Virus record (IMG/VR): IMGVR_UViG_3300046703_000100 | Coordinates: 27,573 to 91,572 of that record | From: a virus | DNA: 64,000 bases | Strand: one strand, 5' to 3' | Part shown: piece after piece, positions 12,818-53,148 of the stretch | How the letters are laid out: each line of letters opens with the position of its first letter | How positions within the stretch are numbered: position 1 is the first letter of the stretch | Position numbers and translations under genes: made by a program | The notes under the pieces: model-generated | Seen by the model: only the letters and a program-made list of their open reading frames with translations | The model's database searches: none | Told to the model about the DNA's origin: nothing

Positions 12818-12988
12818 ATGTTACATAATCTTTTAATTGCTGTTTATAGTGGAACTCTTACTGGAATATTGATTGTCTTTCTTTTAATACCGATAGCGTT
12901 CTTATTAGGGCTTAATTGCCCTTTAACATTATCGAATTTTAGAAAGATATGGTACATTATATTTGTAGGATATAAACATGACAAATAA
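12818..12988 (+). CDS. small membrane protein
   Basis: A 56-residue protein beginning three bases after the previous stop. A hydrophobic stretch (LIAVYSG...GILIVFLLIPIAFLLGL, residues 6-33) could form one long or two tight transmembrane helices, followed by a basic/aromatic tail. It overlaps the first glycosyltransferase gene by 11 bases, linking it to the glycan cassette. Confidence 0.5.
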   Translation: MLHNLLIAVYSGTLTGILIVFLLIPIAFLLGLNCPLTLSNFRKIWYIIFVGYKHDK

Positions 12989-15834: not shown

Positions 15835-16789
15835 AGACAAAATTATAACAATTTCGGGGGGTACAGGTTCTTGGGGAAATGAATTAACAACTCAGTTATT
15901 AACTTATAATCCGAAAGAAATACGAATATATTCAAGAGGAGAATTTGCTCAAGTTACGATGCAGAGAAAGTTCAATAATCCTAAATTAAAATTTATTATC
16001 GGTGATGTAAGGGATTTCGGAGCTTTAAAAAAAGCAACAAAAAATGTAAATTATCTTTTTCATTTAGCAAGCTTAAAACATGTGCCGATTTGTGAATTAC
16101 AACCTGATGAAGCTATTAAAACTAATATTATCGGTATTCAAAATATAATCGAATGTGCAATAGAAAATAATATTCAAAAAGTAATAGATGTATCAACTGA
16201 TAAAGCTTGTAATCCTTTCTGTTTTTATGGTATGACAAAAGCTGTTGGAGAAAAACTTACACAAGAAGCTTCAAGACAAACGACTAATACTCAATTTTTA
16301 GTTATTAGAGGAGGCAATGCTCTTGGTTCAAGCGGAAGCGTTTTAGGATATTTTATTGACCAAATTAAACGGTATAATAAGATTACAATTACAGATATTG
16401 AAATGACCAGATATTTTATTACTTTACAAGAAGCAATCAAACTTCTTTTTGTTTCAATAGCAAGTGAATATTCTGGTAGTATCTTGGTTATGAAAATGCC
16501 AGCTTGTAAAATTATAGATTTAGCAAGGGTGTTAATTCAAGAATACGGAAATACATATACAAAGATAGAAATAATTGGAGTTCGTCCTGGAGAAAAACTT
16601 CATGAATCTCTTGTTTCTACTTATGAATCAGTTAATTGTTATGAATATAATAAAGATTATTATCTTGTTTATCCTTATGGTAAACTTGATTTACCTAAAG
16701 TTGAATTTAAAGAATATTCTTCTAATGACAAACTTATGAACACAGGTGAAATAATGAATATGTTAAAAAAAGGTGGATTTATAAAATGA
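15827..16789 (+). CDS. UDP-GlcNAc 4,6-dehydratase-like (CapE/PseB family)
   Basis: A 320-residue short-chain dehydrogenase of the extended type: SGGTGSWG (NAD(P) Rossmann Gly motif, residue ~9), FHLASLKHVPICE, DVSTDKACNPFCFYGMTK (Ser/Thr...Tyr-x-x-x-Lys, with Met after Gly as in CapE/WbjB/PseB). The first step of UDP-L-FucNAc and UDP-L-RhaNAc pathways is catalysed by this family (dehydration plus C5 epimerisation). The product cannot be read from the sequence alone. Confidence 0.88.
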   Translation: MFKDKIITISGGTGSWGNELTTQLLTYNPKEIRIYSRGEFAQVTMQRKFNNPKLKFIIGDVRDFGALKKATKNVNYLFHLASLKHVPICELQPDEAIKTNIIGIQNIIECAIENNIQKVIDVSTDKACNPFCFYGMTKAVGEKLTQEASRQTTNTQFLVIRGGNALGSSGSVLGYFIDQIKRYNKITITDIEMTRYFITLQEAIKLLFVSIASEYSGSILVMKMPACKIIDLARVLIQEYGNTYTKIEIIGVRPGEKLHESLVSTYESVNCYEYNKDYYLVYPYGKLDLPKVEFKEYSSNDKLMNTGEIMNMLKKGGFIK

Positions 16790-17640
16790 AAAAAATTCTT
16801 ATCTTAGGTTCAAATGGAATGGCAGGTCATTGTATTTATAATTATTTAAAATCTTTAAATAAATACGATATTTACGCCACTCGCCAAAAAGATAGTGATG
16901 AATCTCAACATATTTATGCTTGTAATGTTAAATCACAATTATATTTCTTAGAACCTTTAATAAAACGTATTCAACCAGATATTATAATTAATTGTATTGG
17001 GATACTTGTTAAAGCCAGTGAAGATAACTCTGAAACTGCTATTTTCATTAATGCGTATTTTCCTCATTGGCTTGAAAAAATAACTAAAAATACTCAAACA
17101 AAAATTATTCATTTGAGTACTGATTGTGTTTTTGATGGTAAAAAAGGTAATTATCTTGATACTGATATACCTGATGGGATAGGATTTTATGCTCGTAGTA
17201 AAGCATTGGGAGAGATTATCAATAAGAAGGATTTAACCCTTAGAATGAGCATTATAGGCAAAGAACTTAAAATTGATGGCACAGGGCTATTTGAGTGGTG
17301 TTTGAGGCAAGAAGGAGTCATTTCGGGCTATTCTAAGGCATATTTTAATGGGATTTCGACCTTAGAATTGGTAAAAGCGATAGATAAACTTATAGAGTCG
17401 AATATAATAGGTCTTTATCAATTAGCTCCTAATTATAAAATAAATAAATATCATTTGTTACAATTATTACAAAAAATTTGGAATAAACAAAATATAACTA
17501 TTCATCCCGATTCAAGTTTAGACCAAGACAAAACTTTAATAAATAGCGAACCCCCAATACCTAATTATATTATGCCTTCTTCTTATGAAATAATGCTTAA
17601 AGAATATAAGGAATATTTAGATGCAAACGAATCTAACTGA
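16786..17640 (+). CDS. RmlD-like NDP-4-keto-sugar reductase
   Basis: A 284-residue protein with ILGSNGMAGH (Rossmann Gly motif), DIIINCIGI, HLSTDCVFDG and GFYARSKALGE (Tyr-x-x-x-Lys). It is of RmlD/WbvR length and lacks the C-terminal cupin that CapF/WbjC carries. In the known pathways the cupin-less reductase (WbvR) acts after a WbvB/CapE-type dehydratase to give UDP-L-RhaNAc, which a WbvD-type 2-epimerase turns into UDP-L-QuiNAc. By analogy this set may make that sugar; this is inference. ATGA overlap with the gene before. Confidence 0.85.
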   Translation: MKKILILGSNGMAGHCIYNYLKSLNKYDIYATRQKDSDESQHIYACNVKSQLYFLEPLIKRIQPDIIINCIGILVKASEDNSETAIFINAYFPHWLEKITKNTQTKIIHLSTDCVFDGKKGNYLDTDIPDGIGFYARSKALGEIINKKDLTLRMSIIGKELKIDGTGLFEWCLRQEGVISGYSKAYFNGISTLELVKAIDKLIESNIIGLYQLAPNYKINKYHLLQLLQKIWNKQNITIHPDSSLDQDKTLINSEPPIPNYIMPSSYEIMLKEYKEYLDANESN

Positions 17641-33057: not shown

Positions 33058-33786
33058 TTATATTAACTGATAAATTTTATTTATTATTTCTGTAAAATAA
33101 GCGAACCAAAAGTCTCTATTAAAATTGCTTTTGCAGTGACATTTATCGCATAAACTAACTAAATTTTCTTCTTTACAGTTTGTTTTATTATAATCTATAT
33201 GATGTATACTTAATTTTCTATTATTGTCTTTAAGTTCTTGTTTTTGTATTTTGTCACAGTATTGACATTTGTAATTATCTCTGTTTCTAATCGAGTCCTT
33301 AAAATCGTTTGTAAATTCAAAAGTATAAGGTTCTAAAGAACTCCAATTATTAAAATTGGGATTGTTTTCCCCCATCATTAATTTACTGTGTTCTGGACGT
33401 TTTTTACCTTTATGACTTTCAGTTTTTGTTCGAATTGGAATATCTAATTTTAATAACCAAGCATATATATTTTCATTAGAACAATTATATTCTTTTGCTA
33501 TTTGAACAATGGATTTATTTTCATCTATATAATCTTTAGATAATTGTTCTATAGTAATATGAAATTTATTTTTGCAACAACTACGGCATAACGCTGTGCC
33601 ATATAACGCCGAAGACCAACTTATTTTACTATTACATTGTATACAATAATAATTTTGTTTATCTCGTCTTTGTCCGATTTTTAATAATTGTTTATTAGCA
33701 CATTTTCGACATCTTGTAGATTGATAATGTATTAATTTATTACATTCAATACAATGATTTTTTAAATAATATTTTTTCTTCTTCAT
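33058..33786 (-). CDS. free-standing HNH homing endonuclease with zinc ribbons
   Basis: A 242-residue protein. Two N-terminal ribbons (CIEC...CRKC and CIQC...CRSC), a helix-turn-helix (about 78-115: IVQIAKEYNCSNENIYAW), a NUMOD-like segment GENNPNFNNW, then the HNH core KCQYC...SIHHIDYNK...ENLVSLCDKCH. Same architecture as the proteins at 44521, 49493 and 52375. It lies between a neck gene and the tail tube gene and has its own promoter, whose predicted start falls on the ATG (leaderless). Confidence 0.9.
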   Translation of the reverse strand: MKKKKYYLKNHCIECNKLIHYQSTRCRKCANKQLLKIGQRRDKQNYYCIQCNSKISWSSALYGTALCRSCCKNKFHITIEQLSKDYIDENKSIVQIAKEYNCSNENIYAWLLKLDIPIRTKTESHKGKKRPEHSKLMMGENNPNFNNWSSLEPYTFEFTNDFKDSIRNRDNYKCQYCDKIQKQELKDNNRKLSIHHIDYNKTNCKEENLVSLCDKCHCKSNFNRDFWFAYFTEIINKIYQLI

Positions 33787-34916: not shown

Positions 34917-35537
34917 TTACTTTCTTATAGCAATTCCTAATTCTTTTAAATCTTTTTCCATTATTAATTGTATTTTTATCTCTGGATAAAATATTTTCGT
35001 TAAATCAAATTTAAATTTAGCATCATCTATCCAGTAACCTTTTATTTCTATATATTCATTGGTTTCAGGTAAATAAAAATCAGGTGTATAAGTAGTATCG
35101 CCTAAGTCAAATGCTTTTGGTTCGTATATCCATTTAATATCATTGTCGTCTAAAAATTGAGCGAAATTAACTTCCCATTGTGAATGAAAACAATTATCTT
35201 TATACCAAATTCGTTTACCATGAAAAAGAACTTTACCGAAATGAGGATGTTTTCTTCCTTGCATTTCTTTATGAAAACAATCTGCACATCTTCCTTTACC
35301 AGCGAAAACAGTTTGATGACTTGTTTCTTTACCGCATTTACAATAATAATGTTTATCTTGACAAGTTAATCCATGAATAAATTGATTATTATTACTGCCT
35401 CCATGTATTATTTTATTTTCTGGTCTTTTTTTACCAAACATAGAATTTAAAGAACCTTTATGAGAACAAGATTTACATCTTATCGATTTTGACCAAATTA
35501 ATGTTCCACAATCAATACATTTATTATGTTTATGCAT
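34917..35537 (-). CDS. PD-(D/E)XK homing endonuclease with zinc ribbons and NUMOD3
   Basis: A 206-residue free-standing endonuclease unlike its HNH neighbours. Zinc ribbons CIDC...CKSC and CKCGKE...CADC flank two NUMOD3-like segments (GKKRPENK, GRKHPHFGK). The C-terminal nuclease core is WEVNFAQFLDDN...YEPKAF...TYTPDFYL...YIEIKGYW, i.e. E...Y-x-PDF...E-x-K. This is the Vsr/archaeal-HJR-like fold seen in some phage homing enzymes. It lies between the adaptor and gp10-like genes. Confidence 0.8.
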   Translation of the reverse strand: MHKHNKCIDCGTLIWSKSIRCKSCSHKGSLNSMFGKKRPENKIIHGGSNNNQFIHGLTCQDKHYYCKCGKETSHQTVFAGKGRCADCFHKEMQGRKHPHFGKVLFHGKRIWYKDNCFHSQWEVNFAQFLDDNDIKWIYEPKAFDLGDTTYTPDFYLPETNEYIEIKGYWIDDAKFKFDLTKIFYPEIKIQLIMEKDLKELGIAIRK

Positions 35538-36143: not shown

Positions 36144-38006
36144 TTAAGCTGAAGCTTTCAATCTAATGGTTGCTATAACAGCAGTAATACTTGTTCCCAT
36201 TTTATTCTCAACTCTGTAATAAGAGCTTGCATAGCAACCAACATTTATTTTGTTATCTGTGCCCAAAGTAGTTGTAAAATCAGCCCCATTTTGCCATAGT
36301 ATAGCTTGTTCTCCACTAAAACCGATAACCAATGCACAAGAGCCAGTAGCAGCAACTGTAACTGAAATAAGTCCAGCACCAGTTGACAAAGTGCAAGTTC
36401 CATCATCAGCCAATATAACAGTATTAGCAACTCCAACTAAATCTAATCCCCATTGGACAGTTGGAACATTACTTATTGATATGCCATTTGTGAAACTTGG
36501 AGCTGACAATGAAGCTGGCTTATCACTAAACGCAAAGGCAGATGAGCCTTCTACACACATAGCACCGTCAAACCAGATTACATCTCCAGCAGTTGGGGAA
36601 TAGAAGTATAATATTACATTTGTTCCTGAAGCATCAGTCGTAAACTTTCCAATTTTAGTTTCCCAAGTTGTAGAGGTAGAATCTGTAGCTGGCATATTAA
36701 CTGCTGCGTCAGTAGTAGCAACTCTTGAAGTATCTCCTGCTGTAACTTTAGTTCTATAAGAAACTGAATATGTGGTTGATGCCTTTAATCCTGTTAAGAT
36801 AATATGTATATCTTCACCTGGTGCATTTAATGTAATCTTTTGTGAAACAGCACCATAACCAATATCACCTGTATCAACAGCTAATGTTGGTGAACCGCCT
36901 TTGGCAAAGCCATCAGGAGCTGCCGTAACTCCTGCCGAATGACACTCTAAACTACCATTAAAGATGAGATTGGTGGGGTTGACTGTACCATCTGATTTCG
37001 GAAAAAATCCATAAAAATATGTTAAAAGAGTTGCTTTAATATTTGCCCATGTAAGTTTTCGTTTAGCATTAGAATTTGCGTCTGATTCTATTAAAGTAAC
37101 ATCAGCATCTAATGGTGTAGGTTTGTCTGTCATTGCAAAAATTTCACCAGCAGTTGTTTTGGATATTTTTCCATCAGCATAGGTTTTTACTGCACTTTGC
37201 GAAGGATATTTTGTAGTAGAATTATCTGTTAATGCTCCATCAGTAGATTTATTTGCTTGGTCTTCAGGAACATAACCTATATTAGTATTTAAAATATTCC
37301 AATTAGTAGGAGTTTGGTCAGGGTTATCTACTATAGCAATAAGAGCATCGCCTACTGTAACAGGAATACCGTCTAAGACACCTGCTACTGATATAGCCCA
37401 TGTATCTCCTTTTAAAATTGTTTCTCCACTACCTGAACCACCTGTTACTGGATAAGTATTACCTGAAGCATTAAAAGCTCCTCGATAGTCGAGTAATCCA
37501 ATAACTAAATTATCTGCATAATCTTTTGTAGCTTTTACAGAAGGATATTTGGTATCTGATGAACCGTCTGTAACAACATTTGTGGATTTATTTGCTACAT
37601 CTTCTGCTGTGTAAGCGAAAGTCGCTTTATAAAGAGTATCAAAATATGTTTTAAGTGTTGCTTCGGATAATCCATTACATACTGTCCAAGTATTAGTATC
37701 TACTTTTAATAGAGAAATTATAGCATATTGTCCATTAGTTGCAAGTCCATTTTCAGAATTAACCGTTACATCACCATCTATAGGAGTTATAGTTATTGCT
37801 CCTACTCCACTTTGTCTTACTGCAATTGTGGTTCCTATACCAAAAGCAACAGCAGAATTCTTAGGAATAGTTAAAGTCATTGCAGAAGATTTGTTCATAT
37901 CTATTATTTTATCTGCATCTCCTATAATTAATGTATAACTATCTGTCTGAGAATTTATTATTATATCTTTTATCTGACTTGCACTTAATTGAGTATTACG
38001 TTTCAT
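36144..38006 (-). CDS. fibre protein with carbohydrate-binding-like domain
   Basis: A 620-residue protein. The N-terminus (MKRNTQLSASQIKDIIINSQTD) resembles the start of the proteins at 40118 and 40757. The middle has fibre-type repeats including two variants of AEDVANKSTNVVTDGSSDTK/EDQANKSTDGALTDNSTTK. The C-terminal third (about 370-470) looks like a CBM-type beta sandwich (GYGAVSQKITL, TTYSVSYRTK, VILYFYSP), followed by a Gly/Thr-rich head. It probably binds host glycans; location in the capsid-proximal island suggests a head fibre. Confidence 0.7.
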   Translation of the reverse strand: MKRNTQLSASQIKDIIINSQTDSYTLIIGDADKIIDMNKSSAMTLTIPKNSAVAFGIGTTIAVRQSGVGAITITPIDGDVTVNSENGLATNGQYAIISLLKVDTNTWTVCNGLSEATLKTYFDTLYKATFAYTAEDVANKSTNVVTDGSSDTKYPSVKATKDYADNLVIGLLDYRGAFNASGNTYPVTGGSGSGETILKGDTWAISVAGVLDGIPVTVGDALIAIVDNPDQTPTNWNILNTNIGYVPEDQANKSTDGALTDNSTTKYPSQSAVKTYADGKISKTTAGEIFAMTDKPTPLDADVTLIESDANSNAKRKLTWANIKATLLTYFYGFFPKSDGTVNPTNLIFNGSLECHSAGVTAAPDGFAKGGSPTLAVDTGDIGYGAVSQKITLNAPGEDIHIILTGLKASTTYSVSYRTKVTAGDTSRVATTDAAVNMPATDSTSTTWETKIGKFTTDASGTNVILYFYSPTAGDVIWFDGAMCVEGSSAFAFSDKPASLSAPSFTNGISISNVPTVQWGLDLVGVANTVILADDGTCTLSTGAGLISVTVAATGSCALVIGFSGEQAILWQNGADFTTTLGTDNKINVGCYASSYYRVENKMGTSITAVIATIRLKASA

Positions 38007-38033
38007 TTTATTTCTCCTTATAATATTTTAAAA

Positions 38034-39176
38034 TTAATTAGTACTTCCCCATGCACTAGGTATAGAAGCATAATTATCTAAACTTGTAAGACTGTTTCCT
38101 GCTCCTGCAAAACAAGAAGTTTTTGTAGGCGTTCCTGTTCCGAAATTACAGTTCCAAAGGTCAGGAGCTGTTCCTTGTGTACCGGTAAATGTACTACGAT
38201 AAAAACATTGATTAAAATCAACACTTTGATTTAAGAATCTTGTTCCTGAATCTCCAATAGAATAAAAAATAGTATCGTTTAATTGTAATTTCTTACAACC
38301 ACTGAATGTACTAAGAAAAGTAGTAGCCTCCGTATTGTATTTGAATAATAATGAGGGAACGGTTGTCAACCCAATACAACCAGAGAACGCATTATTAAAA
38401 TCCGTAACTAATGTATTGTATTGAAATAGATTAGCATTTAACGATGTTATTCTAATACAAGATGCAAATATGCCACTAAATTCTCTAACCCCTATATTAT
38501 ATCTAAATATATCATTAGGTATTGATATTAAACTTATGTTATTACACCCATTAAATATACCACTAAAAATAGTAACTGCTGTATTATATTTAAATAAATC
38601 TGATACTATAGCAGTTAATGCACTGCACCCCATAAATATACTTTCAAAAATAGTAACTGCTATACAGTTATCAAACATTCCACTTGGTATAGAAGTTATA
38701 GAGATACAATTTCTAAATGTATTCACAGCAGATGTTAAAGAAGCAAAATTACCTAAAGGAACAATCGTATTAAGATTTGAACAACCATAAAAACTTAATT
38801 TTTTAAATCCCATATCTCCTGTAAAAGAAATCATTTTAGTGATTTTTAATATACTATTGTTTTCATTAATATTGTTAAAAGAAAATGCTTCGCATAATCC
38901 TGCCATAATAATTTGATAAGTTCCAGTAGAAGTATAAACATGAGTTCTATCTGCATCATTATAAGAAGTAATATTACTTTCTGCTCCGCCGTCTCCCCAA
39001 TCTATTACAAAATTATGAGAATAACTAGCACCAGCATTATTAGTAGGTATTGTAAAAGTTTTTCCAGCAGTTGTGTTAACTGTAAGAGAAATTTCAAAAG
39101 TAAATGTATTATTATATATAGGAATTTTTGCAATACTATTATTATTTAATCCTAAATTTAAAAGTTTAAGAGACAT
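38034..39176 (-). CDS. PKD-like plus BspA-type leucine-rich repeat adhesin
   Basis: A 380-residue protein. Residues about 28-95 are PKD-like (FVIDWGDGGAESN...THVYTSTGTYQIIM). Then at least six repeats of the BspA/DUF285 type, about 28 residues each, built on F..C..LT.IP..LF.YNT (for example NCISITSIPSGMFDN, GCIGLTTVPSLLFKYN). Such repeats serve as surface adhesins in gut bacteria, so a phage copy could bind host or mucus. Ends with a C-terminal Cys-containing cap. Confidence 0.78.
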   Translation of the reverse strand: MSLKLLNLGLNNNSIAKIPIYNNTFTFEISLTVNTTAGKTFTIPTNNAGASYSHNFVIDWGDGGAESNITSYNDADRTHVYTSTGTYQIIMAGLCEAFSFNNINENNSILKITKMISFTGDMGFKKLSFYGCSNLNTIVPLGNFASLTSAVNTFRNCISITSIPSGMFDNCIAVTIFESIFMGCSALTAIVSDLFKYNTAVTIFSGIFNGCNNISLISIPNDIFRYNIGVREFSGIFASCIRITSLNANLFQYNTLVTDFNNAFSGCIGLTTVPSLLFKYNTEATTFLSTFSGCKKLQLNDTIFYSIGDSGTRFLNQSVDFNQCFYRSTFTGTQGTAPDLWNCNFGTGTPTKTSCFAGAGNSLTSLDNYASIPSAWGSTN

Positions 39177-39177
39177 A

Positions 39178-39474
39178 TTATTCTTTCTTTTCTTCTGGTT
39201 TTTCTGGTTCTAAAAGTTGTATTAATACTAAGATTATTCCGTCTAATTTTAAAAGGGTTTCCTTATTGTCTTTAATTTGAGCATATTGTTTATCTAATAC
39301 TTCTAAACCTTTTTTCTTTTCAGCTTTTGCCCAAACAAGTTTGTCTTCTATAACTTTTCTTAAATTTCGAGAATCTTCTACTCGACGTTCAACCATTTTA
39401 TCTAATGTTTTTTGCATCTTTTCTTTTTTCTCTTCAGGAAGATTTGCGATTGCCTTACCTCTTAACTTAGACAT
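39178..39474 (-). CDS. coiled-coil protein
   Basis: A 98-residue Lys/Glu-rich coiled-coil protein. It ends two bases before the next gene begins. Could be a fibre stalk or chaperone. No family recognised. Confidence 0.6.
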   Translation of the reverse strand: MSKLRGKAIANLPEEKKEKMQKTLDKMVERRVEDSRNLRKVIEDKLVWAKAEKKKGLEVLDKQYAQIKDNKETLLKLDGIILVLIQLLEPEKPEEKKE

Positions 39475-39502
39475 TGTATTTCTCCTTATTTTAGTTTTAT
39501 TT

Positions 39503-39531
39503 GGGGGAGGAGTTGTACTCCCCCCTTTTTT
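39503..39531 (+). terminator. GC-rich hairpin with plus-strand U-run
   Basis: GGGGGAG/CTCCCCC stem, 8-base loop, then TTTTTT reading on the plus strand, although the genes here are on the minus strand. It would stop antisense transcripts entering from the left; on the minus transcript it is a stable stem-loop without a U-run. Confidence 0.6.
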
Positions 39532-39572
39532 CTATATAACTTAATGTATGTTTTGGGTTTTTTAATTAACTT

Positions 39573-40118
39573 TTAAGCTTGTGCAATATAATGCACAACA
39601 ATTATATCATCTGCCTCAGTTGCCTCTGCAAAAGTAATCTGCTTACCACTAATCGTATAATCTTTTGCGGAACCTTCCTCTTGCAACAGACCTCTAAGAT
39701 ATACCTGAACTGAATTCGCTACAGGAGTATCTGTAAGAGGTGCAGGGGTAGTATCTGAACTACCTGTTAAATCTTCAACTTTGAACGCACTTTCTAAAAT
39801 ACCAACCGCATCTGTAATGGTATAAAACTCTAAGCCATCTGCACCAGCAGTAACTCTTACACCTTTAAGAGATGCGTCAGCATATGTAGAAGGAGCATCT
39901 GTTAAACCAATAAATGCTAATTCCTGTAACGCACTATCAGCTTTACCCAATGAGCTAACTACACCTGCATCTAAATCAGCAGTTGTAATACCGCTACCAG
40001 GTTTCTGATAAGCAGAATCAGCTAATCCTAATGAAATGCCAATCGCTGATGTCAACTGGTCTAAACCGACATCACCATCTTTGATTTGAATACCACGTAT
40101 GGCAGTATTTCTGTTCAT
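39573..40118 (-). CDS. fibre/decoration protein, paralogue of 40200
   Basis: A 181-residue protein closely similar to its neighbour at 40200-40757 along its whole length: NRNTAIRGIQIKDGDV at the start, LADSAYQ, AFIGLTDAPSTYADA, DGLEFYTITD, and the C-terminal unit VQVYLRGLLQEEGSAKDY...DDIIVVHYIAQA. This terminal domain (NG.. Q ..G.DY...F....GD...V.Y) is common in phage fibres. The two genes clearly arose by duplication. Confidence 0.65.
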   Translation of the reverse strand: MNRNTAIRGIQIKDGDVGLDQLTSAIGISLGLADSAYQKPGSGITTADLDAGVVSSLGKADSALQELAFIGLTDAPSTYADASLKGVRVTAGADGLEFYTITDAVGILESAFKVEDLTGSSDTTPAPLTDTPVANSVQVYLRGLLQEEGSAKDYTISGKQITFAEATEADDIIVVHYIAQA

Positions 40119-40199
40119 TTTATTTCTCCTTGATTCTATTTTTTTATTTCTTATCCATCAAGGTTCATATTTCAATTTATTATTTTCAAATTTAATTGT

Positions 40200-40757
40200 T
40201 TAAGCTTTTGTGATAGAATGAATAACAACTATATCACCAACTGCTGTTGCTTCGGCGAAAGTAATAACTGTAAATCCGCCAGCTTCTGTAGCAACATAAT
40301 CTTTACCAGAACCCTCTTCCTGTAAAAGACCGTTGAGATAAACTTCAACAGAATTTACAACAGCAAGAGTAGTCATAGTATATTCTACTTTTGCACTTAC
40401 AACAGGAACTTCTACCGCAACTGCTGACTCTAATACACCAGTGTTATCGGTAATAACATAATACTCCAATGCACTCATTCCAACATTAACTCTTAATGCT
40501 TCTCCAGCATGACCTGAATAAGCACCAGCAGTATCTGTCAAAGCAGTAAATGCTAATGACTGAAGAGCTGTATCCGCTAAATCTAACGAATCCTGAACAC
40601 CTTCTGCTAAATCAGCATAAGGAATTCCACCAACAGGTAACTGATAAGCACTGTCAGCTAATACTAATGAAGCATTAACACCAACAGACAACTGTGCAGT
40701 ATCAACATCGTTATCCTTAATCTGAATACCTCTGATTGCTGTATTTCGATTTGCCAT
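40200..40757 (-). CDS. fibre/decoration protein, paralogue of 39573
   Basis: A 185-residue protein. I chose the start at 40757 because AAAAGAGA precedes it and it begins with MANRNTAIRGIQIKD, the same sequence as the paralogue. Contents as in the neighbour; GLLQEEGSGKDYV...GDIVVIHSITKA is the terminal domain. A longer frame from 40808 has an unrelated N-terminal extension and is less likely. Confidence 0.65.
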   Translation of the reverse strand: MANRNTAIRGIQIKDNDVDTAQLSVGVNASLVLADSAYQLPVGGIPYADLAEGVQDSLDLADTALQSLAFTALTDTAGAYSGHAGEALRVNVGMSALEYYVITDNTGVLESAVAVEVPVVSAKVEYTMTTLAVVNSVEVYLNGLLQEEGSGKDYVATEAGGFTVITFAEATAVGDIVVIHSITKA

Positions 40758-40881
40758 TTTAAGTCTCTTTTCTTGACTTTTTGTACTTCTTATCTCGTCA
40801 AGTGTCAAATTTAAATTTTCAAGTATTTGAAATTCTTTACCCAGAATTTCTACATTAAGTCAAACAAGTTTCAGTAAAGTG

Positions 40882-41154
40882 TTAAATATTTGTATATCCT
40901 GAACCATTACAAAATTCACATTTTGTGTATCCCTGACGAATCGAGCATTTATTTTTACAACGAACAATTAATCCTTCTGCTTCTAATTTCTTAAATAATT
41001 TTTGAATATCAGAATAATAATAATCGAAAAGCATCTTCTTTAAATAAACGAATTCTTCTGATTCTTTTCCAAATTTTAATTGTAATAAATCAAGAATTCT
41101 CTTGACAGTATTTAATTGTTCTAAATATATCACAGAAGCTAAATTAATTTTCAC
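40882..41154 (-). CDS. hypothetical protein with DnaJ-like Cys motif
   Basis: A 90-residue protein. I chose the GTG at 41154 because AAGG lies 8 bases before it; another GTG at 41211 would overlap the previous gene by 38 bases. Mostly helical, with a C-terminal CKNKC...CEFCNGSGY, i.e. a zinc knuckle of the CxxCxGxG type. Sits within the fibre island; role unknown. Confidence 0.55.
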   Translation of the reverse strand: MKINLASVIYLEQLNTVKRILDLLQLKFGKESEEFVYLKKMLFDYYYSDIQKLFKKLEAEGLIVRCKNKCSIRQGYTKCEFCNGSGYTNI

Positions 41155-41173
41155 GATTTTATCCTTACTTTTT

Positions 41174-41764
41174 TTATGCCTTGATGTATTCGACTTGGAT
41201 GATATCTCCACTTAAAATATCGATTTCAAATGCAAAGGTATTTGGAGACACTTCAGTAATATATTCTTCTTCTAATCCATTTAAAGTAACTTCTAATGAA
41301 CCTGATTGATAATTAAATGCTGTTTGAAAAGTAGTTAAATTTAATTGAGTAGGTATTTCATCTTCTATATGAGCATGTTTTTGGGCAACCGCATTATCAA
41401 TATCAGCAACAGATGAAGACGGTCTTCCTTCAATTAAATCCCAATCCAAATCTACTACTTGTCCTTGATTCATCCAATCAGAACCATCCCATACCCATAA
41501 ATCTCCAGTAGCATTTACTATTCTTGCATCACCTTGAACGTTTCCACTCATAGGTAGGTCGCCAACAGTTTCTACACCTGAACAAAATTTTAGAACAATA
41601 TTTGTGCTTTCATATAATAAGGTAACTAAATATTGCCATGTAGTACCGTTCCAAATATATACTTTATTGGTATCTATTGTAACACAGCCTCTACCTACAT
41701 AATTTCCAGTAACAGGTAAACTGGCATAAGAGGCAACTGGTTTGTACAAATAATAATTGCTCAT
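41174..41764 (-). CDS. fibre protein with W-rich repeats
   Basis: A 196-residue protein with two repeats of a motif common in phage fibre proteins: SLPVTGNYVGRGCVTID...VYIWNGTTWQ and DLPMSGNVQGDARIVN...LWVWDGSDW. It ends with a beta domain of the LNGLEEEY...GDIIQVEYIKA type, the same as the C-terminus of the 39573 and 40200 proteins. Confidence 0.7.
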   Translation of the reverse strand: MSNYYLYKPVASYASLPVTGNYVGRGCVTIDTNKVYIWNGTTWQYLVTLLYESTNIVLKFCSGVETVGDLPMSGNVQGDARIVNATGDLWVWDGSDWMNQGQVVDLDWDLIEGRPSSSVADIDNAVAQKHAHIEDEIPTQLNLTTFQTAFNYQSGSLEVTLNGLEEEYITEVSPNTFAFEIDILSGDIIQVEYIKA

Positions 41765-41792
41765 ATTAATTCTCCTTTTTTAAATTTTTATA

Positions 41793-42575
41793 TTATCCGA
41801 TTGACATCCATCTTATTCCGAATAATGTATTAATATTAGTAAAATTTAATGTAAACCCATCTTCATTCATAGAAACTAATGTTGCCATTACTTGAATAGC
41901 TCCTGAAGCATTAAAAAGATATATACATCTATCTTGTTTAGCATCTCCTCTAAATGTATTGCTATAATTTCCACAAAAAGAAGACACATTTTGATTTAAA
42001 AATTCATCGACAAATCCATTACTTTGCATAAACCAAGTTTGCATACCATCGTTCTTATGTCCGACAAAATGTATTGCTTTTGGTTTAAATCCTAATCCAC
42101 TTACAGAATAATTACCAATAGAACTTGGACTTGTAAAATAACCTACTTTAGTATGTATTGAAGCATTTGTACCAGGTGTTCCAGAAATACCTTGATTACC
42201 TGTATCTCCTTTATCGCCTTTTAAACCTTGTTCGCCTTGAATACCCTGTTGTCCGTCATTGCCATTCGCTCCATTAATACCGTCAATTCCGTCTTTTCCA
42301 TCTATTCCATTTATACCATTGACTCCATCTAAACCATTATTTCCTGGCAATCCTTGCTCACCTTGAAGACCAGTTTCGCCTTGAATTCCTTGCTCGCCTT
42401 TGTCTCCTTTTACACCTTGAGCATTTATTTCTTCCCAATCACCTTCTGTTAAACTTCGTGCTATATATGTTTTATTGCCTACTGTATCTCTATAAGTTTG
42501 TCCTTCAAATTCAGGAGTTATTAAAGTAGGAGGAACAATCCCTGATTGACTGGATTGTTTTCGATGTCCTTTCAT
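41793..42575 (-). CDS. collagen-like fibre protein, start ambiguous
   Basis: A 260-residue protein: a 53-residue head, 28 uninterrupted Gly-X-Y triplets (residues 54-137) that should form a collagen-like trimeric stalk, and a C-terminal globular domain. The ribosome binding site GAGAGGAG is placed exactly for an ATG at 42594, 19 bases upstream of the annotated start, but that ATG is out of frame because of a run of ten G. With nine G (or twelve) it would read MGGGSYMKGHRK into this gene. Thus expression may depend on the length of the tract; reinitiation at 42575 (ATGA overlap) is the alternative. Confidence 0.72.
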   Translation of the reverse strand: MKGHRKQSSQSGIVPPTLITPEFEGQTYRDTVGNKTYIARSLTEGDWEEINAQGVKGDKGEQGIQGETGLQGEQGLPGNNGLDGVNGINGIDGKDGIDGINGANGNDGQQGIQGEQGLKGDKGDTGNQGISGTPGTNASIHTKVGYFTSPSSIGNYSVSGLGFKPKAIHFVGHKNDGMQTWFMQSNGFVDEFLNQNVSSFCGNYSNTFRGDAKQDRCIYLFNASGAIQVMATLVSMNEDGFTLNFTNINTLFGIRWMSIG

Positions 42576-42582
42576 ATAACTG

Positions 42583-42592
42583 CCCCCCCCCC
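42583..42592 (-). repeat. G10 homopolymer tract at fibre gene start
   Basis: Ten consecutive G on the minus strand (C on the plus strand) between a well-placed ribosome binding site/ATG and the collagen-like gene. Homopolymer runs of this length are prone to slippage and to sequencing error. Confidence 0.85.
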
Positions 42593-42608
42593 ATAAAATA
42601 CTCCTCTC

Positions 42609-43067
42609 TTATGCAGTTAATTCTACAGATACTTGGTCTGCTGTTCCTCTTTTAAATATTAAAAAAATTCTATTTAATCCTAAACAAGTGTTAATCCATA
42701 TCGCAATTGCATTAGTATTATCTAAAATAGGTTCTGTATCTTGTGTATATACTTTTATTTTAATTTCGCTATATTCTGTTAATTTTGTAATATATAAATC
42801 GTCTAATTCATCTTGAACTGTTTTTCCTGTTTGATATGTAGTAACCTCTGAAGCAATTGTCGTTCCAGGTTCGCCAGTATCACCTTTATCACCCTTCATA
42901 CCTTTAGCAACTGGAATAATATCTATTGATTGAAAATTAATGTTTATAGTTTCGCTTCCAAATAAATCCCCAAACTTAACTTCTATAGAATCTTTCTCTA
43001 TAAAAGATACATTTAAAAACTCTAATATTGGAAGAGGTATATCACTTTGACCCCAATTATAACCCAT
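42609..43067 (-). CDS. fibre-related protein with short collagen-like segment
   Basis: A 152-residue beta-rich protein with four Gly-X-Y triplets in the middle (GMKGDKGDTGEPG) and a helical region after them. It precedes the collagen-like gene and could be its adaptor to the virion. The first bases of the next gene's ribosome binding site abut its stop. Confidence 0.6.
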   Translation of the reverse strand: MGYNWGQSDIPLPILEFLNVSFIEKDSIEVKFGDLFGSETININFQSIDIIPVAKGMKGDKGDTGEPGTTIASEVTTYQTGKTVQDELDDLYITKLTEYSEIKIKVYTQDTEPILDNTNAIAIWINTCLGLNRIFLIFKRGTADQVSVELTA

Positions 43068-44520: not shown

Positions 44521-45174
44521 CTATACTCCTATAGTTATAAGTTCAGTAAAATAAGAATACCAATAATCTCTATTAGCATTTACTTCTGTATTACATTTAC
44601 TGCAAAGAGAAATTAGATTTTCGGGTAAACAATTCTCTTTACAATAATCTATATGATGAATTGATAAAACCTTATCTAAATCTTTAAGTTCTTGTTCTTC
44701 ATTCTTACCACATTTTTGGCATTTATGATTATCTCTATCACGAATTAAATCCTTGAGCTGTTTATTAAACTCAATAGTATAGGGAAATCTGCTCAAGCCA
44801 CCTAACCATTGAGGATGATTCTCTGGATTCTTATATTCTTCTTTACGAGCACAGGATTTACAACGGGTGTTAGGTTTTTCATCTCCATGATTTTTATAAC
44901 AAGCATTATTATTTAATTCTTTTTTACAATCAATACAAAATTTTTTACGAGATTCTAATCCACCTTGCCAAACAGGACTTAATTTTCCAGATTTACCAAA
45001 TTGATGATTTAATTTACCTTGTTGAAAACATTCTCGGCAATATTTTGCTCGTCTATCAATTTTTTGACCACAAATGCAATAATTTATTTCATGTGTCGCT
45101 TCAATAATATAGCATTTACGACATAATTTTACATGTTTTGCACTAAGTTTTTTACCACACTTACATTTATGCAT
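44521..45174 (-). CDS. free-standing HNH homing endonuclease with zinc ribbons
   Basis: A 217-residue protein with ribbons CKCGK...CRKC, CICGQ...CREC and CIDC...CKSC, a segment GKLSPVWQGG and NHPQWLGGLSRFPYTIEF, then the HNH core KCQKC...SIHHIDYCKENCLPENLISLCSKCN. Inserted immediately downstream of the capsid gene; the G/C-rich stem left of its start may be the capsid terminator whose U-run was displaced. Confidence 0.9.
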   Translation of the reverse strand: MHKCKCGKKLSAKHVKLCRKCYIIEATHEINYCICGQKIDRRAKYCRECFQQGKLNHQFGKSGKLSPVWQGGLESRKKFCIDCKKELNNNACYKNHGDEKPNTRCKSCARKEEYKNPENHPQWLGGLSRFPYTIEFNKQLKDLIRDRDNHKCQKCGKNEEQELKDLDKVLSIHHIDYCKENCLPENLISLCSKCNTEVNANRDYWYSYFTELITIGV

Positions 45175-45233: not shown

Positions 45234-46223
45234 TTAGTTCGTAGGAATATTACTATCCGCAACGACTACACCTGTTAAATCTGCTGAACATATAGCTTTG
45301 GTGTTGGTTATGGCGAAAATTATCGATTCGTAGCCAAAGACACCGTAGGCTAAAGTATTTGTTCCACCAACGTTTACAGGTACTGGATTAACAACGATAG
45401 CTCTCTGAGCTTCATTGACTTCCGCACCCATCAACTTTGCTATCTCAGGCGTAATCTGCCTTCTAACGAACTTAATCGGCTTGCCTTCTGCTATTCTTGA
45501 ATCTTTAGCAACCATTATACACTTAAATGGGTCTAACATATAAGCAGTGGCTTCTGTATCTGTAGCATCAACGGAAACTTTTCCGTATATCTTTATAACT
45601 TCTATGCCAAGCTCTTTCAGCTTCGCAGGTAGAGTTACATTATATCTGAAAGCCTGTACATTCGACTTATCATAAAGGTCGATGGCTTCTTTTACTCTTG
45701 AACCAGCCAATAGAACATAATCTGTACCATAATCCTCAAGGGCGTGTTTCATACCTATGAGCACATCGTACAAATCCGCACCTGTCTTCGCATAAGCGAA
45801 GGGCAGTTCCGCACCTGGCATATAAGTTGCAGTGCCAGCTACGATTGCATCCAATATAATCTTCATCTCTCTCTTATCCATACCACGTGTGATGGATTCT
45901 TTACGTCTTGAGAGGATGTCTGTATCAGGTGATGCCAATACAGCGTCAAGCAACACATATTCCAACTTCGAGTTCAAACCCTTAAACGTTATCTCTACGA
46001 TTCCGAGTGGGTCTCTCTTTTTGGGTACGATTGCTCCGGTGCTTACGTCTACATCAAGAATAACATCAGCGTACTGTTCCAAAGCGTTAAACTTCCATAT
46101 CTTCTCTCCAGGCTTCGCAACGAAAGTATCTGCAATTGCCTGTAGTTCCACTGGAACTGGAAGCTGGATGTTAATCGGCTGTCCTATTAAGGACGCTATC
46201 TCTAATACCATATCTCTATCCAT
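45234..46223 (-). CDS. major capsid protein (HK97-like)
   Basis: A 329-residue protein, AGGAG upstream, with higher GC and more uniform codon choice than most of the window, consistent with very high expression. Acidic alpha/beta composition; central DREMKIILDAIVAGTA, YVLLAGSRVKEAIDLYD, and a C-terminal beta domain NVGGTNTLAYGVFGYESIIFAITNT fit a HK97-fold capsid subunit. Its N-terminus LIGQPINIQLPVPVEL resembles a segment of the prohead protease (IIGEPINVQLPSPITV). Placed directly after the protease gene. Confidence 0.8.
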   Translation of the reverse strand: MDRDMVLEIASLIGQPINIQLPVPVELQAIADTFVAKPGEKIWKFNALEQYADVILDVDVSTGAIVPKKRDPLGIVEITFKGLNSKLEYVLLDAVLASPDTDILSRRKESITRGMDKREMKIILDAIVAGTATYMPGAELPFAYAKTGADLYDVLIGMKHALEDYGTDYVLLAGSRVKEAIDLYDKSNVQAFRYNVTLPAKLKELGIEVIKIYGKVSVDATDTEATAYMLDPFKCIMVAKDSRIAEGKPIKFVRRQITPEIAKLMGAEVNEAQRAIVVNPVPVNVGGTNTLAYGVFGYESIIFAITNTKAICSADLTGVVVADSNIPTN

Positions 46224-49300: not shown

Positions 49301-49505
49301 TATCAGCAAAAGTATATACCATTTTTATGCCAGCAAGGTCTCTACTATCTTGAAGAAGTATCCCTCTTGCTTTAGCGATTTGAAATAATTCATTCTCTTC
49401 TTTCGAACCTTCTTCTAATAATTGAAGAGAAACGGATTCTTCATAATCAGTTAAAAATTCTTGACATTGTATAGAAGTTATAAATTCTTCTTTTATTTCT
49501 GGCAT
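46329..49505 (-). CDS. prohead protease with zinc ribbons, DUF6582-like domain and scaffold repeats
   Basis: A 1058-residue multidomain protein. N-terminal about 220 residues: prohead protease (SIDIDHNRSRVIGYY with the catalytic His; KLTCSYEIWC with the catalytic Ser). Then CxxC zinc ribbons: CRKCGKC; CPKC...CMKC; CANC...CPEC; CPAC...CMSC; CAQC...CGEC. Then an acidic region, a DUF6582-like domain (FAVVIHKDGKTIRKYPIKDPAHVRNAL), a Lys/Glu-rich coiled coil, five tandem 14-residue repeats, and a helical C-terminus that looks like a scaffold. The multi-ribbon insertion is unusual for a prohead protease. Confidence 0.82.
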   Translation of the reverse strand: MPEIKEEFITSIQCQEFLTDYEESVSLQLLEEGSKEENELFQIAKARGILLQDSRDLAGIKMVYTFADKANGNRARLPKKILLRALPGICGKSIDIDHNRSRVIGYYIDYKYIVKDESVIAYGIIFKSNFADEWKQAQALFRAGKLTCSYEIWCAKNKRKYLSDGTYLLTEMEIAGGAILFKTKPAFADAHVLEMAKINEEDMVYASKHFHPCEEMIIHGETICRKCGKCQEPEEAKIIGEPINVQLPSPITVSGKDSVGTKPVLVAPFAISDKEKPENKDVVGVKPRNNPPHSVASMDKEVECPKCAYKGIPNKKVVGDGTNTYTYACMKCGGLLDNISTPFSSVKCANCSYIIDKPFVTANEIKCPECKAILNEKGETKYPPQHIDFKMSCPACSSRNWRILKSDNKNADIKCMSCQRAYVISYQEDPKATVMSNLHFLHIGTAPCAQCGHRVGYAGTSKNNKYEVSCGECNLRFSHDITNEMVRRISSINEMTKADYETKYGAPTDLNTVTTPRVNSDPTVINKIDNYVHKAGLVEFNYPLSNGGEIVLEGKIINENPSGLNLYNLEVAGIEGIFIVSEKELISTADELIDKSANIIETEGEKDMEKKDVKPSAEIESPVEASIDDSYEDGFEVAKKLTYEQRQSLSDKDFAVVIHKDGKTIRKYPIKDPAHVRNALSRLGQEAPKAGLKSLGVSPESVRAKVLRRAKELNMHMNMNKADADSYDTDVMDDKNAEKVAEKLIKSHDDALFLQDKTLKEQKMAEEEEKLETIKEEKEETKENKNKASDEPTSILGVRGSKEKADLKGGKPDMNRNIANTENADLKKPVKDEKHTDVADLKTGKPDIDRTVADLKSGKPDMDRTVADLKSGKPDIDRTVADLKTGKPDMDRTVADLKTGKPDMNRNIAELKGYQVPLPGDDSDKLAEKLAQAKACIARHVASVKKAHKKLQEARKISKEKACEMHREMASQIEFYKVNAEEIGKRQREVGLEIASKISDRDILDNTKFADLKLEKANLEVATKGKVIGSKSEEAGDPNKDVRAEIDAKAFGRKARKT
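46782..46991 (-). repeat. five tandem 42-base repeats in protease/scaffold gene
   Basis: Five units encoding ADLK[ST]GKPD[MI][DN]R[TN][VI], in direct succession; one more distant copy lies upstream. Codons differ between units, so the peptide sequence rather than recent copying maintains the repeat. Part of the scaffold region. Confidence 0.85.
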
Positions 49506-50098
49506 AAATATAAAGCCTCCATTACTTTACTAAAATAAGCAAACCAATAGTCTCTATTATAATTTGCTAAACAATTACATTTATTACAAAGAGTAATTAA
49601 ATTTTCTTCTTTGCAATTATTTTTACTATAATCTATATGATGAATCGATAATTTTTTATTAATTTCTTTTATTTGTTGGTCTTCAATTTTGAAACAATAT
49701 TGACATTCGTGATGGTCTCGGTCTCTTATTTGTTCTTTTAAATTATCGTTAAATTCTATCGAATAGAGATTATTCCAAATACCGCCTTGCCAATTGGGGT
49801 TATCTTCGCCAATATTTTTACCAATATGTTTTTCACTTATTTGTTGTTTGGTTTCTTTCGTATGATGTTTACCATACATACCGTTATTTTCTGGTTTAGA
49901 TAATCTTTTTATTGCTCTATTTTTAATATCGATTATCAATTGTGGATTTTCTTTAAAAGCATGTTTTGTAGCACAAGAAGGACATCTTCCTCCACCAAAT
50001 CTTGCTGTTTTTCTACATATGTTCTCTCCACAATCGGTACAATGACCTTTGTGCATTATTTCATATTGTTTTGAATATTCTTTACGATATTTATTCAT
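49493..50098 (-). CDS. free-standing HNH homing endonuclease with zinc ribbon
   Basis: A 201-residue protein with N-terminal CTDCGENIC...CPSC, a NUMOD3-like GMYGKHHTKETKQQISEKH, NPNWQGG, and the HNH core ECQYC...SIHHIDYSKNNCKEENLITLCNKCN. Overlaps the protease gene by 13 bases. Very similar in its last 90 residues to the enzyme at 33058. Confidence 0.9.
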   Translation of the reverse strand: MNKYRKEYSKQYEIMHKGHCTDCGENICRKTARFGGGRCPSCATKHAFKENPQLIIDIKNRAIKRLSKPENNGMYGKHHTKETKQQISEKHIGKNIGEDNPNWQGGIWNNLYSIEFNDNLKEQIRDRDHHECQYCFKIEDQQIKEINKKLSIHHIDYSKNNCKEENLITLCNKCNCLANYNRDYWFAYFSKVMEALYLCQK

Positions 50099-50100
50099 AT

Positions 50101-50340
50101 TTATAATTTATCTACTTCTTCAGAACCTTTAGTATAATATTTCTCTTCTTCGGGGTCTAACATAATTAATAAAGAAATAAATTCTCCAGCATGTACACGT
50201 TCTTCATTCGCTATAGATATTAAAACTTTCTTTGCAAGTTCATCATCACATTGTTCAGCAAGGGTTGTATAATCGGCAATTGCTCCGTATTCTGCTGTAA
50301 TCATTTTACGAATCTGACGAATAAGTTCTTGTTTAGTCAT
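50101..50340 (-). CDS. ferritin-like / rubrerythrin-like small protein
   Basis: A 79-residue two-helix protein: MITAEYGAIADYTTLAEQC...LAKKVLISIANEERVHAGEFISLLIMLDPEEEKYY. E17...Y21 and EExxH (E47-E48-x-x-H51) are the di-iron-type ligands of a half ferritin-like bundle, such as occurs as cargo of encapsulins. It lies between the portal and the protease genes and starts on the last base of the portal stop codon. Confidence 0.7.
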   Translation of the reverse strand: MTKQELIRQIRKMITAEYGAIADYTTLAEQCDDELAKKVLISIANEERVHAGEFISLLIMLDPEEEKYYTKGSEEVDKL

Positions 50341-52358
50341 TATTTTTTACCTTTGAATTTTCCTGCCAAACGTTCCCAAAGAGAAAGATTGCTTTTTGCT
50401 AATCCTGATTTTCGTACTGCACTATACGCAACCCGAAAGGCATATTGTTCAACTGCTTTAATAGGTTTTCCTTTAGCCATCATATATCTAAACGCTCCAT
50501 TAAATGCTCCCCGAAAAACTTTTTGTTTCTCTTCTGACATTTTCTTTATAGCAGGAGGTAGTGAATTTAAACTTGTGTATGGTGCAGTAACTAAATCATT
50601 CTCTGAAGCAGTCTTGGCATATGCTGGATGATTTTCTCCGACCCATGTTTTTGCTTCTGATTGTTTCCAAGTATTTTTATCGAATAAATAAGATTGTATT
50701 GTTGTTGTCTTTTGACCTTTTATTTTCCCTATAATTGCTTTAATGTGTTTTGAAGGTGAAAGAACTATTGTTCTAAAAGATTTATCATCAAATTGTTTCG
50801 GGTCTTTTTGACGATAGCGAAGATAATTTTCTGTAATTCTTACTCCTGATTTTCTTGCTAATTCTAATTCATCTGAATCAAAATTAACTATCTCTGCTGT
50901 AATTACATCATTATCTTCTTCTTCAAATGCACTATAATTCCAATTCTGTGTTTCTGTTCCTGTTCGGTCTTGAAGAGTTTCTTTGCCATCTTTATTAGTA
51001 GCTGTTGGAGGAATAACCTCTGTATTTGTTCCTTGTATATCTATTCCTTTTCCTTCTTGATTTTGAGTAATAGGAGGATACATTGTAATTGAATCACCAG
51101 ATTTTTCTTCTTTTTCTCTTCGGAATTTCTCGGTTTCATAATCTCCTTCACCAACTAATTCTACAAAAGTTCTCTTAGATAACAAACCTCTATCATAAAG
51201 AGTTCTTAATTTCTCTTTAAATTCGTCAGTCATAAAAGAACGAACTGGGGAAGATGATATATATAATTTTGATGCGTTATATTTAATGTGCGAATCGTTT
51301 TTCTCGGCAATAAGATAAAGAAGGGTATTTAAAATATGCTTAAAATCTTCAATAGCTGAATTAATTTCTTGAATAAACGCTTTAGGATTTAGGACAGATT
51401 CTCGACGATTAGAAACTACGCCCTGAACTATATCTATAAAACCAAGACCTGAAAGAATATTTCTTTCGGCTTGTTCGAAGAGTTCTGCCTGAAATAATGT
51501 CTTTAAATCTGGAATTAAATGTTTTATCTCTTCATCAAAATTTGTAACTCTCATCGGTGTCTTAACCTGTTTATCATCCAAATGCATTACACGAAGATTC
51601 TCATACAACTGTTGGAATTGATTTACAACTTCTTGTAATTCAGGTTGTGAATAAGTCTTCTGTTGATTTAAAGCAAGACCTTCAGTACCTTTCTGCACTA
51701 ATAGCATATAAGGAATAATCTGGTCAAGAACTTCTATTTCTTTTTTCTTTAACGATTCTATAATTTTATAATTATAATAAACACCACGCTTAATTGTATA
51801 AGGAATAGGATATTTATCAAACCATCTACAATAAGGACGATTAACTATATGAGTGCCTGGCGTAATTTTATTCTCAGAATCTTTACCTATATAATAAGAC
51901 CATGAATCTACTGTAAGAACATCAGTGTTTTTATCTTTTTCTAAAGCATGAATTGAACCACCATCTACAAAAATCATTTGGTCAGGAAGAAGAAGATTTG
52001 TAGTAGGGTCTTTTTTCCAATGAGCTATCTGAAGAACACAGAATGAAGAGTATTTCCACCTCTCCTGCATATACTCTTTTGCTAATGCTTTAATACCCAT
52101 TGGAATTGTTCCATAGGGAGCATTAATGGTATTGAGCCAATTATTTAATACTTCATCAAGTTGGTCATTCTCAGCTTCGATACGGTAAGAAACTGAAGCA
52201 GATTGCACTGCAAAATCGGTAAGCACATCAACCAACCCTGTCATATCATTACGAAACATACTCGCTACTACCTCACATTGATTGTGGAAATCTGCCGGAA
52301 CTACGATTTTCCGGAGGAGGAGCGATAATATATACGTCATAATCATGCTTGAATCCAC
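50340..52358 (-). CDS. portal protein with C-terminal ChaB-like domain
   Basis: A 672-residue protein. The first about 430 residues have portal character: GLVDVLTDFAVQSASVSYRI, a long crown helix, and KTLFQAELFEQAERNILSGLGF. The rest is a linker and two accessory parts; the last is a ChaB-like domain (YTSLNSLPPAIKKMSEEKQ...FNGAFRYMMAKG...AYSAVRKSG). Position between TerL and the protease agrees. The ChaB-like domain may contact DNA or the internal scaffold; this is inference. Confidence 0.78.
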   Translation of the reverse strand: MDSSMIMTYILSLLLRKIVVPADFHNQCEVVASMFRNDMTGLVDVLTDFAVQSASVSYRIEAENDQLDEVLNNWLNTINAPYGTIPMGIKALAKEYMQERWKYSSFCVLQIAHWKKDPTTNLLLPDQMIFVDGGSIHALEKDKNTDVLTVDSWSYYIGKDSENKITPGTHIVNRPYCRWFDKYPIPYTIKRGVYYNYKIIESLKKKEIEVLDQIIPYMLLVQKGTEGLALNQQKTYSQPELQEVVNQFQQLYENLRVMHLDDKQVKTPMRVTNFDEEIKHLIPDLKTLFQAELFEQAERNILSGLGFIDIVQGVVSNRRESVLNPKAFIQEINSAIEDFKHILNTLLYLIAEKNDSHIKYNASKLYISSSPVRSFMTDEFKEKLRTLYDRGLLSKRTFVELVGEGDYETEKFRREKEEKSGDSITMYPPITQNQEGKGIDIQGTNTEVIPPTATNKDGKETLQDRTGTETQNWNYSAFEEEDNDVITAEIVNFDSDELELARKSGVRITENYLRYRQKDPKQFDDKSFRTIVLSPSKHIKAIIGKIKGQKTTTIQSYLFDKNTWKQSEAKTWVGENHPAYAKTASENDLVTAPYTSLNSLPPAIKKMSEEKQKVFRGAFNGAFRYMMAKGKPIKAVEQYAFRVAYSAVRKSGLAKSNLSLWERLAGKFKGKK

Positions 52359-52374: not shown

Positions 52375-53148
52375 TTAATTGCACAATAAATTTTTTTGAA
52401 TTAAATTTTGAAATAATTTTATCCAATTTTCCCGATTATAATTAACTTTAATATTACAAGTATTACATAAACTAATAAGATTTTCTTCTTTACAATTTTG
52501 TTTATTGTAATCAATATGATGAACATCTAAAACACGACCACGTAAAACTTTATAATCAACTTCTGCTATACCACACTTTTGACAAATATGATTATCTCGT
52601 TGTCGAATGGCTTCTTTTAAAGATTCGTTAAATTCTTTAGTATAAGGAAGAAAACTACGTCCGTCAACATAAGAAGGATGGTTTTCTGGATTCGCTAATC
52701 GTATTTTGGTACTACAAGAATGACATAATTCTGTACCGTATAATCCATTTAGTAAACTAATTTTTTTTCCGCAATCTTTACAATAGTATTGTTTTAAACA
52801 TTGTCCTGTTTTGTAATTAGGATTATTTTTACCTGTTAACTTTTGTCTATTTTTAGCAATATTCTTAGCATTGCAAACACGACATCTGGTCGCACGATTG
52901 TTTATTTTCATATCACAATCAATACAATATTTTTCTCCACAACATTTACCATGTTTATAACCAGGAGCATTTTTGCCTTTATAACAATCTGGATGGTCTG
53001 CATGATATTGTTTTAGTCCACAAGAATGACATCTACCACTACGATATAAAGCAGTTGAAAAATGAATCTTTTTCTGGCAGTCTATACAAAAATATTCTTT
53101 TTGTGTTATACCGCCTTTCCAATTTGGATTTTCTTTGTTCTTATTCAT
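52375..53148 (-). CDS. free-standing HNH homing endonuclease with zinc ribbons
   Basis: A 257-residue protein with four ribbons (CIDC...CHSC, CIDC...CRVC, CKDC...CHSC, plus a final ribbon in the HNH part), NPNYKTG segments, and the HNH core KCGIAEVDYK...VHHIDYNKQNCKEENLISLCNTCN. Longest member of the group, mainly by repetition of N-terminal ribbons. Lies between DUF5662-like and portal genes. Confidence 0.9.
   Translation of the reverse strand: MNKNKENPNWKGGITQKEYFCIDCQKKIHFSTALYRSGRCHSCGLKQYHADHPDCYKGKNAPGYKHGKCCGEKYCIDCDMKINNRATRCRVCNAKNIAKNRQKLTGKNNPNYKTGQCLKQYYCKDCGKKISLLNGLYGTELCHSCSTKIRLANPENHPSYVDGRSFLPYTKEFNESLKEAIRQRDNHICQKCGIAEVDYKVLRGRVLDVHHIDYNKQNCKEENLISLCNTCNIKVNYNRENWIKLFQNLIQKNLLCN

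Follow-up and report, generated by a model that had tools for sequence, protein, structure and literature searches.

The DNA analysed here (the window, 64,000 nucleotides) was taken from a virus record of 91,572 bases with a GC content of 30% and corresponds to its positions 27573-91572. On its minus strand, a gene for a collagen-like fibre is preceded by a tract of ten G, and the first G of this tract also completes an upstream ATG. The minus-strand sequence across the tract and both ATGs is ATAAGAGAGGAGTATTTTATGGGGGGGGGGCAGTTATATGAA, and the features of the locus are collected in Table 1. The initial annotation had placed a G10 tract at the start of this minus-strand gene and GAGAGGAG six bases 5' of the ATG at 42594; both positions proved exact. 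In the whole 91,572-base record this tract is the sole G or C run longer than 6, all others having a length of 6 or less. The number of runs of ten expected by chance in the record is between 0.0004 and 0.06, varying with the Markov order used, and the tract is not a product of chance.

Table 1. Features of the fibre locus. Coordinates are those of the window; the pairing energy assumes an E. coli-type 16S tail.
Feature	Position	Strand	Basis or remark
G10 tract (C10 on the plus strand)	42583..42592	-	read directly from the sequence
Upstream ATG, the G of which is the first G of the run	42592..42594	-	read from the sequence
GAGAGGAG, Shine-Dalgarno-like site for ATG 42594	42601..42608	-	predicted pairing -8.6 kcal/mol
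The fibre's own ATG, homologous to the L061/L099 fibre start	42573..42575	-	sequence comparison
27-codon dead-end frame from ATG 42594 at ten G	42511..42594	-	frame reading
Collagen-like fibre gene, 260 aa, opened by ATG 42575	41793..42575	-	
Fibre N-terminal module, 51 aa, common to the tract-bearing L061/L122 fibre	42423..42575	-	37% identity
Collagen-like stalk, about residues 53-136	42168..42419	-	Pfam Collagen, E 1.2e-15
Partner gene directly 5' of the fibre	42609..43067	-	C-terminal domain also found 5' of the L061/L099 fibre
Variable surface-protein region containing the fibre, flanked by conserved structural genes	36144..42575	-	comparison with family loci

The number of G determines what is read from the ATG at 42594, and reading of the frames shows that single-base changes in length put this ATG in or out of the fibre frame. 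With 9 G it opens a product of 266 aa continuous with the fibre (MGGGSYMKGHRK...), and with 12 G a product of 267 aa (MGGGGSYMKGHRK...), as had been claimed in the initial annotation. In the assembled state of ten G, the frame continues for 27 codons, past the ATG at 42575, and is closed by a TGA whose last base is 42511. The stop after seven codons that had been assigned to ten G is found at 11 G, where the 7-aa product ends at the TGA of an ATGA overlapping ATG 42575. Re-initiation at the fibre start, which had been proposed as a further route, would be possible at 11 G, and not at the assembled ten. The site GAGAGGAG had also been called the only well-placed ribosome binding site. It is present, but that it is the only one is doubtful, as the G run is itself a strong potential Shine-Dalgarno sequence. 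Its spacing to ATG 42575 is 7 bases, and the predicted anti-Shine-Dalgarno pairing is -11.1 kcal/mol compared to -8.6 kcal/mol for GAGAGGAG, both computed with an assumed E. coli-type 16S tail that may differ in the host.

The 260-aa frame of the fibre is otherwise intact. A profile search with the N-terminal module matched only L061/L122-type fibres among the family loci searched, and PHROGs tail-fibre matches fall on the collagen stalk. The C-terminus of the partner gene is 51% identical over 49 aa to the gene preceding the L061/L099 fibre. Structure models were poor, with a mean pLDDT of 48 for the C-terminal domain of the window fibre and 42 for the L061 head. The window fibre may be a receptor-binding virion protein.

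Other genes of the window were recorded as well. Two neighbouring similar genes in the variable surface region (39573-40118 and 40200-40808, minus strand; MNRNTAIRGIQIKD...) are apparently a tandem duplication. Related putative HNH endonuclease genes (33058-33786, 34917-35537, 44521-45174, 49493-50098 and 52375-53148, minus strand) are scattered among the structural genes and occupy other positions in relatives. On the plus strand, Glycosyltransferase, UDP-GlcNAc 2-epimerase, Polysacc_synt_2 and RmlD-like genes follow each other in a row (12978-17640); together they are a phage-borne set of surface-sugar genes.

Using the putative capsid (45234-46223) and putative portal (50340-52358) proteins as queries, we found an uncultured phage family with the same gene order. 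Both names were given by gene order and size, as searches of Pfam and PHROGs gave no match for either protein. Whole records were then scanned for G runs in a set of 30 related records including the window, a total of 1,664,721 bases. Six runs of 10-12 G were found, one per record in 6 of the 30 records, together with none of 8-9 and seven of G7; given the seven G7 runs, the expected number of runs of ten or longer is 0.27 at most. All six long runs are located on the coding strand of genes of the structural region, whereas the G7 runs are spread over unrelated genes, some of them in antisense orientation. Thirteen unrelated phages, chosen as low-GC from general knowledge and covering 2,241,737 bases, were used as controls and contain no G run longer than 8. 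Comparing the rates of family and controls (six runs versus none) results in p = 0.006, and if only four runs are counted as independent, in a one-sided p = 0.03.

Five relatives thus carry a long run as well. In L033, a small gene flanked by the putative portal gene and a 408-aa gene contains a G12, 38 bases downstream of its ATG. Its 12 G give a product of 19 codons, and 11 or 14 G would give a protein of 94-95 aa. The orthologues of L037 and L031 (48% identity) have no tract and an intact frame, and the downstream frame of L033 is therefore a real gene. The G12 of L035 is in frame in a 173-aa gene; the gene before it has a lectin-like match below threshold. In L061 (G10) and L122 (G12), the runs are in fibre genes with a sub-threshold C1q-like head. 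The sixth run is a G10 in L067, where it occupies the final codons of a 770-aa gene encoding a Laminin_G_3 domain, directly before the next start. This run fits a switch less well, because slippage near the end of a gene would change little. In three of the six long runs, CAGT is found directly 3' of the tract (window 42579-42592, L033 4494-4509, L061 124-137).

L061 and L122 originate from the same metagenome and offer a pair of closely similar tract-bearing genes. The ends of the L061 record share a 99-base repeat, and the L061 fibre gene was joined across this repeat (MHKRQGHKQGESSPIGIITPEYITQLYMDIINKKIYVSTGLTSSDWTISAPDGGGAV...); the first codons of the L122 gene lie beyond the contig end and were taken from L099. 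In the N-terminal module, the L061 and window fibres share 37% identity, and the G10 of L061 sits 156 bases into the gene. The L061 and L122 fibre genes are 94% identical over 574 bases, and the DNA 3' of them is 71-84% identical, a pattern suggesting that the fibre was probably exchanged recently between two phages of one sample. Gaps in the fibre alignment occur at the tract only (GAC + G10 + CAGT in L061 versus GACGGA + G12 + CGAACCAGT in L122), and the tract is therefore a hot spot of length difference. The L061 fibre is in frame, and translation of the L122 fibre would terminate after 67 codons; a tract of 11 or 14 G would put it in frame. Additionally, L122 has a nonsense change in the head. 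As it differs from L061 by more than the number of G, and because of this nonsense change, L122 may be a decayed copy.

The closest relative of the window is L058, with 65% in the capsid protein. At the fibre position of L058, no homologue of the window fibre or of its upstream partner was found; for this reason the lack of a tract in L058 was discarded as a test of the switch. The collection searched, from which very near records may be missing, yielded no near relative of the window fibre, and an exact search with the window flanks and variable tract length gave no match. Another relative, L039 (62% in the capsid protein), is a contig binned in a Lokiarchaeota MAG. It has identical scores to L003 in the blocks compared, and the L039 stretch is without a tract. 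The MAG was rejected as host evidence, as binning does not show the host; its assignment may reflect a binning error or hint at the host. A pattern scan for AGGAG-N4..9-ATG-G9 over viral contigs resulted in 22 matches. The single collagen-like match, L014, was not kept as an analogue: the tract is inside a 1673-aa ORF, and the Shine-Dalgarno sequence and ATG are incidental.

Descriptions of phase variation mostly concern bacteria that escape phages. For Fletchervirus (Campylobacter phage), receptor-binding proteins that vary in phase through poly-G tracts were reportedly presented by Sorensen et al. in 2021 in Cell Rep. Two of the several receptor-binding proteins encoded by Fletchervirus phages are expressed phase-variably (PMC8713573). 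Hypermutable poly-G tracts have been named as a phage strategy (PMC10579305), and a 2025 review regards phase variation in Fletchervirus phages as an exceptional case (PMC11959909). The initial annotation had regarded such a tract as new in the stalk of a likely head fibre; for phages in general, these reports of poly-G phase-variable receptor-binding proteins show that the idea already existed.

Like the window, Fletchervirus combines a low-GC phage genome with a G run of some 9-12 bases that sets the frame by its length and is placed within a surface-protein gene or at its 5' part. Of the two Fletchervirus genomes that we scanned, NCTC12673 has a G9 and a G11, and CP81 a G12 and a G7. The G12 of CP81 ORF109, 87 bases in, resembles the G10 of L061, the comparison being one of position. 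The window differs in that the run is fused to the start codon, with three predicted outcomes, and we found no description of such a fusion in the literature. Furthermore, switching has been demonstrated in Fletchervirus, whereas in the window virus, which is uncultured, it is a prediction. Searching 50,697 phage records, including Fletchervirus, with the putative window capsid protein and the fibre (tblastn) gave no match.

Similar tracts are also found elsewhere. Surface-glycan genes of Campylobacter jejuni are poly-G contingency loci (PMC10877375); their hypermutable G runs in genes for surface structures, turned on and off by frameshift, resemble what is proposed for the window, but they are cellular genes and not part of a phage structural region. 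Variable or long homopolymers in phage genomes are shared by Klebsiella phage MMNM, with poly-G indels of which one shifts a frame (PMC11633184), and by N4-like vibriophages, with homopolymers up to 12 (PMC3670811). In contrast to the window, the frameshifted gene of MMNM is not a virion component, and the homopolymers of the vibriophages are not tied to fibre genes.

We consider it likely that the window tract is a slippage (contingency) locus controlling a virion fibre. Six long runs in 30 records, together with the L061/L122 pair, make phase variation, as originally proposed, the best-supported reading, although the account given for ten G was wrong. In the mechanism that we propose, DNA-replication slippage would add or remove G at the tract. 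With 9 or 12 G, the strong site GAGAGGAG and ATG 42594 would produce the fibre with a short MGGGSY extension. With 10 or 13 G, ribosomes would enter a dead-end frame of 27-28 codons. As this frame covers the fibre's own ATG, little fibre would be made, or its synthesis would depend on independent initiation at 42575; the G run may be a Shine-Dalgarno sequence for 42575, and "off" at ten G may therefore mean "lower". With 11 G, the dead-end frame would end in the ATGA at the fibre ATG and allow re-initiation. The phage population would then be a mixture of particles differing in fibre content. We infer that slippage takes place in the window genome itself and affects the amount of fibre.

The predicted pairing and the 7-base spacing would also agree with the G run being an overlong Shine-Dalgarno sequence for ATG 42575, with an incidental upstream ATG and a length that tunes the initiation rate and not the frame. 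The L061/L099 homologue starts at the ATG equivalent to 42575, which is in line with this. We nevertheless find this explanation unlikely, since no other gene of the window phage has a G-run site, and the runs of L033, L035, L061 and L122 are inside frames, 38-166 bases past the start, where they cannot serve their own start. The polymerase could also stutter on the run, so that unchanged DNA would yield in-frame and out-of-frame messages in a fixed proportion. Bacterial transcription slippage is best known on A or T runs, which counts against such RNA-level slippage, as does the difference between L061 and L122 at the tract in the DNA. It would explain why out-of-frame runs are kept in L033 and the window, and homopolymer slippage has been suggested for N4-like phages (PMC3670811). 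On balance, slippage at the RNA level appears quite improbable.

Homopolymer length is prone to error, and the true run could be 9 or 12 G and always in frame, or the run could be a poly-G artefact of the instrument. Three of the six tract records come from closely numbered metagenomes (3300033148, 3300033153 and 3300033156), with four family contigs carrying runs in all, and the thirteen controls do not test an artefact because they are from other, mostly older sequencing. The runs are, however, embedded in continuous sequence on either side and share both the coding strand and one genome part, while instrument error would not select strand or gene. An artefact is thus very unlikely, although a technical cause shared by the closely numbered metagenomes keeps some residual weight against the switch. 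Loss of the fibre by gene decay, with the run as a byproduct, could account for L122, which is out of frame and has its nonsense change, and for the window and L033, which are out of frame too. The otherwise intact window fibre and the in-frame genes of L061 and L035 argue against decay, which would hardly explain the repeated origin of runs in non-homologous genes of one genome region; we give it very little credence.

A wider proposal, that poly-G contingency loci are a lasting strategy of the whole uncultured family, that runs recur in non-homologous surface genes and move with exchangeable fibre cassettes, and that the window run selects among three outcomes, is put forward tentatively. 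If it is true, the fusion of the run to the start codon means that its length selects an extended, a blocked or a re-initiated fibre. Viruses of the window family probably switch surface proteins on and off by miscopying a G run, and by analogy the best reading is a poly-G switch like that of Fletchervirus, of presumably independent origin in a phage family unrelated to it. Repeated tracts in such a second family, together with a pair of in-frame and out-of-frame copies from one metagenome, would suggest a more general phage strategy for changing surface proteins.
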